Shown here piece after piece: positions 13,628 to 17,268 of a stretch of DNA of 64,000 nt (the first letter of the stretch is position 1; each line of letters starts with the position of its first letter). The stretch comes from Erythrobacter sp. BLCC-B19. GTDB taxonomy: Bacteria; Pseudomonadota; Alphaproteobacteria; Sphingomonadales; Sphingomonadaceae. The DNA lies in assembly GCF_028621955.1 (NCBI RefSeq), contig NZ_CP117516.1, positions 2,750,001 through 2,814,000 on the forward strand. Reading direction: 5' to 3'. Made by a program: the position numbers and the translations under genes. The notes below the pieces were generated by a model. The model was not told the origin of the DNA and did not search any database. It saw only the letters and a list, made by a program, of their open reading frames with translations.

Positions 13628-13647
13628 GGCCCAGCGCCTAGCGCAGA

Positions 13648-13664
13648 CGGTCGCAAAGCGACCG
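13648..13664. other. GC hairpin after lepA
   Basis: A perfect 7-bp stem (CGGTCGC / GCGACCG) with an AAA loop lies 21 bases after the lepA stop codon. There is no T-run, so it is not a classical intrinsic terminator, but it may stabilise the 3' end of the message. Confidence 0.45.
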
Positions 13665-13677
13665 GCAAGCTAGAAGC

Positions 13678-13750
13678 GAGAGGCCGCATTCCGGCCGGCG
13701 GGGCCGCGCAGCGGAACCCTTTCGACGTCATGGCCGCGGCTTTGCCGCGG
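13678..13750 (+). repeat. Imperfect inverted repeat, copy 1, with hairpin end
   Basis: This 73-base unit shares the ordered blocks GAGAGGCC, CCGGCCGGCGGG, GAACCC, TTCGACG and GCGGCTTTGCCGCGG with the reverse complement of 17201-17268. Its right end, 13733-13751, is itself an 8-bp hairpin with a TTT loop. Copy 1 lies between lepA and the AT-rich operon; copy 2 lies on the far side of the island in opposite orientation. It resembles a dispersed intergenic hairpin repeat more than insertion-sequence ends. Confidence 0.7.
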
Positions 13751-13764
13751 CTTATCATCAGCGC

Positions 13765-14838
13765 TCAAATAAGTTCGCCAATTGATTGAGATATCATTTT
13801 TTGGAGATCCAACGGTGCTCGCGAACTATGGACTAAATAGTCCGAAGAACTAATGATGAATTGTGAGACTCGCGGCTCTCGCTTAAGAATTTCAGAGATA
13901 TTTTTGTCGAGTTCTGGAAGCTGATCCGTAACTTCGCGTATACTTAATTCCCTTGCCACAAGAGCAGATGTCAGAAGATGCTTGGGTTCAGCTAAGGCAT
14001 GGCTAACAAATTTCTGAAGTCGGCCCCACTCTGGTAAATCTGCATTCTCAGACTCAAATTTTTTGCCGATCTCTTGTCTGATGCTAAAGGACTCTTGTCC
14101 ACCCCAAATGTAATATCGCAGCATCTGAACAAATTCTTCTGGCTTCGAGTCGGAGCGATATATACGGCGTACCTCCTTTGCTATGCTGCTCCATAAGATG
14201 AGCATGCCGCATATGAGATCGAAAAAGATTGCACGATGAGCGGGTTTCGCAGGGTCTATTTCCCCCCGAACAGCACGGAGTTCGCTAATTAGTCGGCGAA
14301 ATGTTTTGGCCGGATCACCCGATATAGGTATCAGGTGCCGTGAGCACTCAAACAAATTTTTTGACCAAGGCCAAGAGGTATATGCCTCTTGCTGCTGCTG
14401 CCATCTATCTGCCGTTGACTGATAAAAAATATCTTTATTAAAGCCCGGGCTTGAAAGAGCTATGAGATCTGAAAAGGTTTCTTCACTGTGCAAATCGACG
14501 CACATCTTTAAAGCGGCCAATCTGTGATTCTCTAGCGGACGTACCTTCAATAATATGATTGCAGACTCGATGCCTGTAAATGATGTCAAACCGCTAGCCC
14601 AAAGTGCTCGATTTATCGCACTCATTTTGCCTGATTTGCAGTCAAAAAGGGTGCGCCGCATTCCGCCGTCATCCAAAGGCTCCAATCCGACAACATCAAG
14701 ATCGGTAAGTGGCTCCGGCTCCTTCGTGAGATCAGATGGGCTATAAACGACCACTTCGGGGCACGGGACATGGCCAGCCGCCAAACATGCGCGGATAGCG
14801 AGCTGCTTCAGATATCGATCTTTGTCGCCCTTGTTCAT
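13765..14838 (-). CDS. PD-(D/E)XK nuclease-like protein of unknown function
   Basis: A 357-residue protein with no named family that I recognise. The N-terminal 75 residues look like a restriction-endonuclease fold: E28 in 'CPEVVV', D48 in 'TDLDVVG' and D66-x-K68 in 'FDCKSGK', the usual E...D...(D/E)xK arrangement. The remaining 280 residues are mostly helical with no recognised motif and no membrane segment. It is translated from an ATGA overlap (14835-14838) with the upstream 425-residue gene, so the two act together. Codon use is plainly AT-richer than in lepA or bamD, a sign of transfer. A DNA-cleaving role is inferred from the motif only. Confidence 0.75.
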   Translation of the reverse strand: MNKGDKDRYLKQLAIRACLAAGHVPCPEVVVYSPSDLTKEPEPLTDLDVVGLEPLDDGGMRRTLFDCKSGKMSAINRALWASGLTSFTGIESAIILLKVRPLENHRLAALKMCVDLHSEETFSDLIALSSPGFNKDIFYQSTADRWQQQQEAYTSWPWSKNLFECSRHLIPISGDPAKTFRRLISELRAVRGEIDPAKPAHRAIFFDLICGMLILWSSIAKEVRRIYRSDSKPEEFVQMLRYYIWGGQESFSIRQEIGKKFESENADLPEWGRLQKFVSHALAEPKHLLTSALVARELSIREVTDQLPELDKNISEILKREPRVSQFIISSSDYLVHSSRAPLDLQKMISQSIGELI

Positions 14839-16112
14839 GTGTCGAACTTTAGCATAAGTTGCGTGAATTCCTCAGCTGCCTCTGGGTCTGATATTTGTTT
14901 TTCCCGTGTTTTCAAATTTGACGCAGATATCAGCGACTGGATATAACTGTCATCCTTCGTAAGGGCGATCCTGGCTTCTTGGTCAACCTCCATCCCTGAC
15001 ACCTGCCCCGTGGCTAGCATTCTAATCGCTAGATCGATCGCTTGCTGGTTCTCTTCGGTCGCGTTGAGATGAAATTCAGAGCGCCCAAACCCAGTTGGCT
15101 TGAGTGTCCCAACGCGCATCTGGACTAGGTTCTGGTACTGCTTGTCTGCTTCGCTGTTCGAGCGAAGATAGCCAGTGTCACGTAATGACCTAAGGATCGC
15201 GAGTGGTGACCGAATAGCGATTTTTTCCGGTAGCAACTGGCCCTTCCTGACGGCTGAAATCAAAGCCATTGCTCGCTCATAGATTTCTCGGTTTGATGCA
15301 TTTAGTCGTGTTCCACCCGGGCTTGGAGTGAAAAGGAACGACTCTGACTTTTGGCCAAAATTGATTGTAGGGGGCTTTATCATTCCTTCGGCGGCTAGCT
15401 TCGTCATGAGCGCAATCTCAGTCGGGTTAATTGAAAATCCCCCGATTTCCTTTTGGCTAATGGCGAGTGACATTGGCCAACCTTGATTGCGACCAAGTTT
15501 TTCCAAGAGCTTTTGGAGATTGCTCGCGCCTGCTGATGCGGCGGCATCGGCAAGCCCCTCTAAGTTATCTACAAAATGGTAGGGGCTAATTAAAATCTCT
15601 CGCCCCCTAGCTCTTTGGCTTGATATGATACCAGACTTGGTACCCACCACTAATGTGCGATCAAAGAGCTCGCGCTGCATTCCGAGTGAATTGAAAACCG
15701 TATCTTTATTTTGGGGTGCCTTCGAAAGATGCGATAGGAGCTCTACAATTGCAACTTCTTGCTCATTAAAACTGAGTTCAGACGATGCATAATCTCCAAG
15801 GCCCGCATATACGTTTTCGAAAATCGGAATATCCGGAATAACGCTCTTTATAGTTTTGCCAGAAGATAAAATCGATACAAATCCTGCCTCTTCCAAAATT
15901 TCAAGAACAGGTCGCAATGCAAACGACGGGATACCTATGAAGTAATCCGAGACCTTTCTTAAAATCTCAAAGTCTATTGGTGCGAGGCCCTTGATATGTA
16001 GCGCAAGCGTTGCCGCCATTCCAATCATTTCGAGTTGATCAAACTCGGGGACCCGCGCGCCCGCCAAGCCGGCATGAAGATCGTATGCGTGCTCAACAAG
16101 GACTTGGGACAT
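14835..16112 (-). CDS. Winged-helix-like protein of unknown function, first gene of accessory operon
   Basis: A 425-residue soluble protein. Two segments look like winged helices: about residues 45-85 ('ILRKVSDYFIG...VLEILEEAGFVSIL') and about 115-178 ('NKDTVFNSLGMQRELFDRTL', then 'GIISSQRARG'). Such modules suggest DNA binding. The middle and C-terminal parts carry no motif I recognise. Base composition is low in GC: positions 15841-15900 contain 21 G+C in 60. ATG 16112 lies 38 bases after a strong-looking promoter. It is translationally coupled to the nuclease-like gene, so a recognition or regulator plus effector pair is plausible. Function is not established. Confidence 0.75.
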   Translation of the reverse strand: MSQVLVEHAYDLHAGLAGARVPEFDQLEMIGMAATLALHIKGLAPIDFEILRKVSDYFIGIPSFALRPVLEILEEAGFVSILSSGKTIKSVIPDIPIFENVYAGLGDYASSELSFNEQEVAIVELLSHLSKAPQNKDTVFNSLGMQRELFDRTLVVGTKSGIISSQRARGREILISPYHFVDNLEGLADAAASAGASNLQKLLEKLGRNQGWPMSLAISQKEIGGFSINPTEIALMTKLAAEGMIKPPTINFGQKSESFLFTPSPGGTRLNASNREIYERAMALISAVRKGQLLPEKIAIRSPLAILRSLRDTGYLRSNSEADKQYQNLVQMRVGTLKPTGFGRSEFHLNATEENQQAIDLAIRMLATGQVSGMEVDQEARIALTKDDSYIQSLISASNLKTREKQISDPEAAEEFTQLMLKFDT

Positions 16113-16149: not shown

Positions 16150-16177
16150 AAAATAAGATGTTCGGAGAGATTGTCAA
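16150..16177 (-). promoter_or_regulatory. Sigma-70-type promoter of the accessory operon
   Basis: On the minus strand TTGACA (16177-16172) is followed after 16 bases by TATTTT (16155-16150). The start codon of the 425-residue gene is 38 bases downstream. A perfect -35 box is uncommon in this GC-rich genome and suggests the island brought its own promoter. Confidence 0.6.
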
Positions 16178-16244: not shown

Positions 16245-17147
16245 TCACGGATCGAACGAGTCGTCCTTGAGGCTCCACACCGTCTTCGGCTCTGGCGCAG
16301 GCTTCTTCGCGCGCCAGCCTTCGGGCGGGCCGTCGGCAAAGTCGCCGTTTGGTTCGGCGGGGCGCTCGGGCGCGGGAAGTGCGGGCACTTCAACCGGGTC
16401 GTAGTAGGTGGTCGGGGTGTCGAGGCTCCCGCCCACGATCTTGCGCGTGCGCTCGTCGGCCCCGGCGGCGGCGAGGTCGCGGTCGCGTAGCTCGGCGAAG
16501 CGGGCGAAGGCGGCGAGGGTTTCGGCGCTGAGGACGGCGCGGCGCTTGGGGCGGTCGCGGGCGATGCGGGTGCGGATCTCCTCGATCTTGCGGTCGATGC
16601 TCGCGCGCACCTCGGCGGTGGAGACCTTGGGCTGTTCGGCCTCCCACTCCTTGCGCCACTGCTTCTTGAGCCGGTCGAGCTGCATCTGGCTGACCGCGTT
16701 CAATCCCTTGGGGGCGCCGCCTGCGGCAAAGCGTTCGGGCGCGCGGTTGCGCAGGATGAACATCAGCAGGGAATCGTTGCGCTTGATGCGGGTGCCGATG
16801 AACTTGCCGTAGGAATAGACCGGCTCCTCGGTGCCGTTGAGGGCGCGATCCATGGCGACGTCCTCGATCCGCTGGACGCCGAGCTGGAGCGCGGCTTCCC
16901 AGGCGGCGCGGAACTCCTCGGCGCCGGGCTGGCGGCGCAGGTAGTAGGCGCCGACGCTGCTCATGTCGACGGCGCGGGCGGCGGCCTCGACGCTGCCGAG
17001 ATCGGCGAGCGCCTCGATAAAGCTGCGCTGGCGTTCGGGGGTCCAGCCGTCGTGGCGCGCGCATTGGCGGGGCACGGGGGTGAAGGCGGGAAGCTCTCCG
17101 GCGGGGACGGGGAGGCGGGCGGAGCGGGGGTCTTTCTTGCGGGTCAT
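16245..17147 (-). CDS. Terminase-small-subunit-like HTH protein
   Basis: A 300-residue protein whose residues about 35-95 resemble the helix-turn-helix of phage terminase small subunits ('GSVEAAARAVDMSS' then 'GAEEFRAAWEAAL'). The C-terminal half is charged and proline-rich with no motif. Similar genes occur singly in sphingomonad chromosomes away from prophages, as I recall, so it may be domesticated. It is GC-rich, unlike the operon downstream. It runs in the same direction as that operon but is separated from it by 132 bases containing the operon promoter. The start ATG 17147 lacks a clear ribosome binding site. A hairpin (17161-17187) sits just upstream. Confidence 0.65.
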   Translation of the reverse strand: MTRKKDPRSARLPVPAGELPAFTPVPRQCARHDGWTPERQRSFIEALADLGSVEAAARAVDMSSVGAYYLRRQPGAEEFRAAWEAALQLGVQRIEDVAMDRALNGTEEPVYSYGKFIGTRIKRNDSLLMFILRNRAPERFAAGGAPKGLNAVSQMQLDRLKKQWRKEWEAEQPKVSTAEVRASIDRKIEEIRTRIARDRPKRRAVLSAETLAAFARFAELRDRDLAAAGADERTRKIVGGSLDTPTTYYDPVEVPALPAPERPAEPNGDFADGPPEGWRAKKPAPEPKTVWSLKDDSFDP

Positions 17148-17187: not shown

Positions 17188-17200
17188 GGGTGCGGGCGCG

Positions 17201-17268
17201 CCGCGGCAAAGCCGCGTCGTCGAACGGGTTCGGCTGACGCCGACCCGCCGGCCGGGCTTTGGCCTCTC
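17201..17268 (-). repeat. Imperfect inverted repeat, copy 2
   Basis: Reverse complement of this 68-base segment matches copy 1 at 13678-13750 block by block, with 4-6 bases of difference in spacing. It contains a 6-bp hairpin with an AAA loop at 17202-17216. Together the copies bracket the nuclease-like operon and the HTH gene. Confidence 0.7.

Follow-up and report, generated by a model that had tools for sequence, protein, structure and literature searches.

What is the function of two AT-rich genes lying beside lepA in Erythrobacter sp. BLCC-B19? Both are contained in a 64,000-nucleotide stretch of contig NZ_CP117516.1 (assembly GCF_028621955.1, positions 2,750,001 to 2,814,000), hereafter the window and numbered from its first letter, and both open reading frames (ORFs) are where a first, sequence-only reading of this DNA had placed them:

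14835..16112, minus strand: first gene of the operon, encoding P2 (425 aa), a tandem winged-helix protein (ORF; structural model; 42-member alignment)
13765..14838, minus strand: second gene of the operon, encoding P1 (357 aa), a PD-(D/E)XK nuclease-fold protein (ORF; structural model; 44-member alignment)

We consider it likely that the pair is a compact two-gene nuclease module for defence or for conflict between mobile elements, in which P2 would sense or control and P1 would cut. The evidence comprises the pairing of the genes, the predicted fold of P1 and the conservation of its active site, the mobility of the pair, its defence neighbours and its presence in prophage cargo slots.

The model of P1 (predicted local distance difference test score, pLDDT, 94.7; predicted template modelling score, pTM, 0.93) combines a PD-(D/E)XK nuclease domain with a helical C-terminal domain, and its predicted core, of alpha-beta-beta-beta-alpha-beta topology, spans residues 8-118. 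This core covers residues 28-68, where the sequence-only reading had placed E28, D48 and D66-x-K68 of a nuclease. The features are as follows, clade I being the group of pairs to which the window pair belongs and clade II a related group introduced below:

14449..14838, minus strand: P1 nuclease domain, approximately residues 1-130
14635..14757, minus strand: predicted active-site residues E28, D46/D48, D66 and K68 of P1 (conservation table; related motif in 11/11 of clade II)
13771..14412, minus strand: all-helical C-terminal domain of P1, residues 143-356, possibly its partner-binding part (secondary structure of the model; invariant H201 and G247)

Among 44 homologues, D46, D48 and D66 occur in all, K68 in 43 (with one arginine) and E28 in 41 (with three aspartates). 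The motif [TS]DxD...[DE]xK...[RK]..[WF]..G is present in 44/44 clade I P1 proteins, if R is allowed for K, and in 11/11 of clade II. P1 displays both the core fold of the PD-(D/E)XK superfamily and its acidic residues and (D/E)xK at the ends of core strands, and is predicted to be a metal-dependent nuclease of this superfamily that would cut DNA or RNA. The fold comparison, for which full-length proteins were used, probed chiefly residues 2-135.

The model of P2 is of lower confidence (pLDDT 82.3, pTM 0.72) and consists of approximately four tandem winged helices. The sequence-only reading had recognised the winged-helix nature of this protein, which the model upholds, and had counted two such segments, a number that the model does not sustain:

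15834..16049, minus strand: winged-helix-like unit 1, residues 22-93 (secondary structure of the model, by eye)
15588..15764, minus strand: winged-helix unit 2, residues 117-175
15333..15563, minus strand: winged-helix-like unit 3, residues 184-260 (secondary structure of the model, by eye)
15066..15299, minus strand: winged-helix-like unit 4, residues 272-349, with the conserved REIYERAMAL..AVRKGQ (alignment and model, by eye)

Tandem winged helices are familiar above all from complexes of transcription and of the condensin type, and they also mediate protein-protein contacts. A Walker A motif was found in none of the 42 clade I and 11 clade II P2 proteins, nor in the 44 P1 proteins.

Neither protein could be assigned to a named family, as the sequence-only reading had supposed: the window pair had no credible match in Pfam, NCBIfam, PHROGs or PADLOC, and its membership of a known family was rejected on this basis. 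Against the 5027 models of PADLOC-DB 2.0.0 (2023), which cover systems described up to 2023, P1 gave no match and P2 only Cas5_IIIf (E-value 0.05), and the clade II pair L081 gave only ZorB, for its P1 (0.055). The best Pfam E-values were 0.013 for the 44 P1 proteins (an unrelated family; Mrr_cat at 0.13 in one member), 0.0096 for the 42 P2 proteins (the winged-helix family TrmB, in two members) and 0.0045 for five clade II pairs (an unrelated family; Mrr_cat at 0.017 for one P1). Sequence searches of the PDB returned nothing or weak profile matches, the best for P2 (0.015) being a MarR protein over one unit, and comparison with viral models yielded partial nuclease-like matches only, none at an E-value of 0.001 or below. 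Neither a description of the pair nor the accession numbers of six members were found in the open literature, subscription papers and preprints being outside the scope of that search. Within these libraries and searches the module is undescribed, with an effector of known kind and a new pairing.

With respect to the CARF-PD-(D/E)XK nucleases Card1, Can2 and Cdn1 and to the AF1548 and VC1899 folds, P1 lacks a CARF domain ahead of the nuclease, because its core starts at about residue 4-8 and the remainder is helical. In P1 the core is instead followed by an all-helical domain, which the structure searches hardly probed, and its partner is P2, not the cyclic nucleotide system of type III CRISPR. 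The structural match between P1 and LmuA of Lamassu is weak, below the level of evidence, and the pair has no SMC partner. P2 resembles RPC62/RPC3, TFIIIC, ESCRT-II, the SelB C-terminus and ScpB in having several winged helices in a row, its best Foldseek matches being TFIIIC TauB (7.5e-4) and an RNA polymerase III subunit (1.2e-3); however, template modelling scores to such proteins are low (about 0.1-0.3), single units alone superpose well, and there is no clear sequence relation.

A search for co-occurring homologues, the check that the sequence-only reading had proposed, found P1 directly downstream of P2 and on the same strand in 48/48 fetched clade I loci, some of them near defence genes. 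This set contains seven plasmid loci (L002-L008), 38 loci that a P2 alignment detected among genomes of 84,980 species, each represented once, and three from two scans of viral contigs, and includes the near-duplicates L037/L038 (one contig), L009/L010, L017/L018, L003/L024 and L041/L048. Because the loci were picked by P2 matches (although four plasmid records out of the seven had been matched by P1 too), the count tests mainly whether P2 is followed by P1. In tblastn searches of plasmids, P1 was detected in six records and P2 in nine, all six being among the nine. The start-stop distance between the genes ranges from -8 to +44, with a 4-base overlap in 16 of 49 pairs (window pair included; starts set by script). 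Mean pairwise identity is 0.40 for P2 vs 0.29 for P1, and the two identity matrices are correlated (Mantel r 0.904, n = 42, 0/5000 permutations as high), as would be expected from joint inheritance, to which shared host descent would add. According to record titles, the clade I hosts are Proteobacteria, a cyanobacterium, Bacteroidota, Firmicutes, an acidobacterium, Chloroflexi, Verrucomicrobia, Myxococcus, Fimbriimonadaceae and, on plasmids, actinobacteria; we take the pair to span about ten phyla.

The reverse search, with a P1 profile, picked out one further genome among 385 from the class and six more among 398 from the phylum. Genome G756 proved to be clade I with both genes, and six genomes (G387, G959, G886, G904, G958 and G746) gave weak P1 matches confined to the nuclease core, with a gene of 416-425 aa directly upstream in 6/6. 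Profile alignments built from these six pairs and five plasmid pairs matched those of clade I with E-values of 2.6e-16 (98.7%) for P2 and 1.6e-18 (99.1%) for P1, which identifies the upstream genes and the weak matches as relatives of P2 and P1; taken singly, the L081 proteins had matched at 1.4e-6 and 2.4e-9. The clade II plasmids belong to Mesorhizobium, Vibrio, Rubrobacter, Rhodococcus and Streptomyces. Searching with the clade II alignment also revealed nine viral contigs (seven distinct, L126/L127 and L129/L130 being near-identical), all with both genes in the same order; earlier viral-contig scans with an actinobacterial P2 and two single clade II P2 proteins had given no match. A P2-model match in genome G472 (E-value 2.1e-4, 54 residues in a 122-aa frame) was taken as a generic winged helix, and P1 was not matched there.

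The pair is an acquired insert that has spread horizontally, because its G+C content is low, it is present in a single sampled genome of the family, it is absent from the lepA loci of relatives, lepA and bamD adjoin in one of these, and an inverted repeat bounds the insert. The AT-richness noted in the sequence-only reading was borne out: G+C is 47.4% in the pair vs a mean of 66.7% (standard deviation 1.9, lowest 62.2%) over 1140 overlapping 2348-base segments from the rest of the window, positions 15841-15900 do contain 21 G+C of 60, and third-position G+C is 0.45 for P1 and 0.49 for P2 vs 0.89 for lepA and 0.84 for bamD. P1 was found in 1/298 sampled family genomes, namely the window's own. 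From 41 genomes of the genus 30 lepA loci were taken, 29 of them from relatives, and in these 29 no pair-like DNA was found within 1.5 kb either side of lepA. In relative G318, bamD directly follows lepA, with a similar palindrome and no cargo between them. In the window, a 3.5-kb insert is bounded by two inverted repeats, one nested in the other (31 nt at 81% and 17 nt at 100%; 13678-13751 and 17200-17268):

13678..13708, no strand: left arm of the inverted repeat bounding the insert (right arm 17238-17268; G318 palindrome similar)

Of the 29 relatives, 13 carry DNA resembling 13628-13764 at their lepA locus, one of them in two copies. That the palindrome might be a dispersed repeat was considered and rejected, because a search of the window that tolerated up to 3 mismatches returned a single copy of its left arm; no tRNA gene that could have served as insertion site was found in the window. 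The lepA gene is indeed a flank, as first read; bamD is not the immediate neighbour on the other side, where a GC-rich ORF of 300 aa (16245-17147, minus strand) intervenes within the same insert, with no credible match in Pfam (best E-value 0.11). The window P2 is 58-60% identical to copies from Siccirubricoccus, Falsigemmobacter and a Nevskiaceae metagenome-assembled genome and 52% identical to a cyanobacterial copy, but only 43-44% to copies from Sphingomonas or Erythrobacter.

Two further features of the operon agree with the sequence-only reading, namely the coupling of the genes and a promoter with a perfect -35 box:

14835..14838, minus strand: ATGA stop/start overlap, TGA of P2 and ATG of P1 sharing 4 bases (sequence)
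16150..16177, minus strand: sigma-70-like promoter TTGACA-16-TATTTT (10/12 matches; number of sites not above chance)

The promoter alone constitutes little proof, since five promoter-like sites occur in the stretch vs 2.7 +/- 1.7 in shuffles.

Other copies are carried by elements of several kinds. Clade I occurs in two related prophage-type contigs beside an integrase-like gene (at the prophage end in L010) and, in L049, between portal-like and head-like genes (named by reading the sequences). L118 is a Mu-like prophage whose terminase is 88% identical to that of Shewanella phage vB_SspS_MuM16-1. In the P2-like clade II contig L128, genes for the P2-type baseplate spike and for tail completion, both identified by search, flank the pair, which runs opposite to them; judged from sequence, L129 and L130 share this arrangement, and L126/L127, which represent one element, have the pair directly beside the tail completion gene. 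This gpS-gpV gap is a variable cargo slot of P2-like phages: apart from this module, it is empty in Yersinia phage vB_YenM_201.16 (73 bases), contains a retron-type reverse transcriptase together with a regulator and a small ORF in vB_YenM_56.17, and one hypothetical gene in vB_YenM_31.17. P2-like prophages carry defence hotspots, according to the passages of PMC9122126 considered here. The module resembles the content of these P2-like/P4 hotspots (PARIS and others), which are cassettes of ~1-5 kb flanked by conserved phage genes; the hotspots are the gpA-gpQ and psu-int slots, whereas that of the module is gpS-gpV, and those passages describe no winged-helix and PD-(D/E)XK pair. On plasmids of unrelated lineages, a mobF relaxase gene adjoins the module in both clades (L003, 7926-10375, clade I; L088, 5605-8224, clade II), P2 in L003 overlapping that gene at its end.

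The neighbours of the pair vary between loci; several are defence genes. The pair lies between HsdS and HsdM in L031, ~1.4 kb from an upstream HsdR in L033 and 3.7 kb from HsdM in L018; in L044 it adjoins AbiL-type genes, beyond which lies a SIR2-Argonaute gene, and in L046 it is near a type IIG-like enzyme. A PADLOC scan of ten neighbours, which had been selected for their defence-like look, matched eight. At an E-value of 1e-8, 146 near neighbours matched 298 PADLOC models vs 42 for 146 random chromosomal ORFs, figures that count overlapping models, not proteins. For the neighbour set, the two ORFs of at least 100 aa closest to the pair on either flank were collected; 11 ORFs above 900 aa and the duplicate loci L009, L017, L024, L038 and L048 were left out, and 146 of the remaining 149 ORFs (100-900 aa) were scanned. 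The ORF caller also accepts false ORFs. The controls were 146 of 191 ORFs from 20 random chromosomal stretches in 12 genomes, all from the class to which the window belongs and almost all from the same family; of the matching models listed for them, at most 25 per scan, most were reverse transcriptases, one ORF each. Known defence genes or prophage slots accompany the pair above chance relative to this control, which was not matched for mobile regions. Among 99 Pfam families in the neighbour batch were phage integrase (4), AAA_21 (4) and YhcG nuclease (2). The two scanned neighbours without a PADLOC match are proteins of 1522 aa (L039, 12573-17138) and of 571 aa (L026, 15741-17453), the latter SIR2-like by eye.

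The undescribed defence or mobile-element module that the sequence-only reading had proposed gains support from this horizontal acquisition and from the repeated occurrence of the pair in prophage cargo slots and close to defence genes. In the mechanism we envisage, P2, with its approximately four winged-helix units and no ATPase motif, would recognise a sign of an invading phage or plasmid, be it nucleic acid or protein; it would bind P1, probably through the helical C-terminal domain with its invariant H201 and G247, and either hold P1 idle or direct its cut; and P1 would cut nucleic acid as the effector. The binding of the two proteins, the trigger of P2, the target of P1 and the protection against phages are what we infer from the observations above.

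Several points weigh against the defence or conflict module. The scanned neighbours were a selected set, two of ten went unmatched, and the PADLOC comparison has the limits of counting and of control given above. Several chromosomal copies adjoin housekeeping genes rather than defence islands (lepA in the window, a glnS-like gene in L022 and an rpoB-like gene in L036, the latter two by reading the sequence). P2 is acidic (isoelectric point 5.5), which disfavours plain DNA binding and makes the DNA-recognition role suggested for it by the sequence-only reading uncertain, 50,697 annotated phage records contained no homologue of either clade, and gene pairs in cargo slots can equally be toxin-antitoxin or regulatory genes.

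The alternative that survives best, unlikely as we judge it, is a toxin-antitoxin addiction module kept by post-segregational killing, with P1 as nuclease toxin and P2 as antitoxin and autorepressor. The antitoxin-first order with ATGA coupling, the winged-helix partner and the occurrence on plasmids and in prophages would all suit such a module, but P2 is disrupted beside an apparently intact P1 in three records, which may weigh against it: on Vibrio parahaemolyticus plasmid NZ_CP047989 an insertion sequence, which can silence P1, lies inside the P2 match while the P1 match is the same as in three sister plasmids, and in L039 and L047 P2 is split over two frames beside an apparently intact P1 (assembly errors are possible). 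Moreover, P2 exceeds P1 in both size and conservation, which is not typical of antitoxins, and the pair is not confined to plasmids. A restriction-like system without its own methylase (type IV, or accessory to type I), in which P2 would read a DNA mark or sequence and P1 cut, is slightly less probable still: the pair has no motor ATPase and no regularly linked cognate methyltransferase, no PADLOC model, methylases included, matched more than 4/146 of its near neighbours, and restriction-modification genes stand in few loci only. That reading is a sub-case of the defence or conflict module rather than its opposite. Least probable is a non-defensive pair acting in the repair, recombination or gene regulation of mobile elements (on replication or transfer intermediates), given its sporadic occurrence in the family, its presence in unrelated elements and on chromosomes, and the lack of a replication gene recurring beside it in the neighbour lists.

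A more specific version of the defence module has, in our estimation, somewhat less than an even chance: a widespread ATPase-free immune system of two deep clades, in which a tandem winged-helix scaffold would detect a feature that is conserved in foreign replication or packaging and would license a Card1-like nuclease, and which P2-like and Mu-like phages and plasmids would carry to exclude rivals and chromosomes would use too. If the defence interpretation is true, the pair would be an uncatalogued defence system of one nuclease and one sensor, without an ATPase and under 2.4 kb in length; it would unite loci from about ten phyla that are labelled only 'hypothetical protein' in the plasmid records examined, place the module in a variable slot of P2-like phages as well as on plasmids, both mobilizable and conjugative, and have tandem winged helices serve as a bacterial immune sensor. 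The gpS-gpV slot itself may hold other undescribed defence genes.
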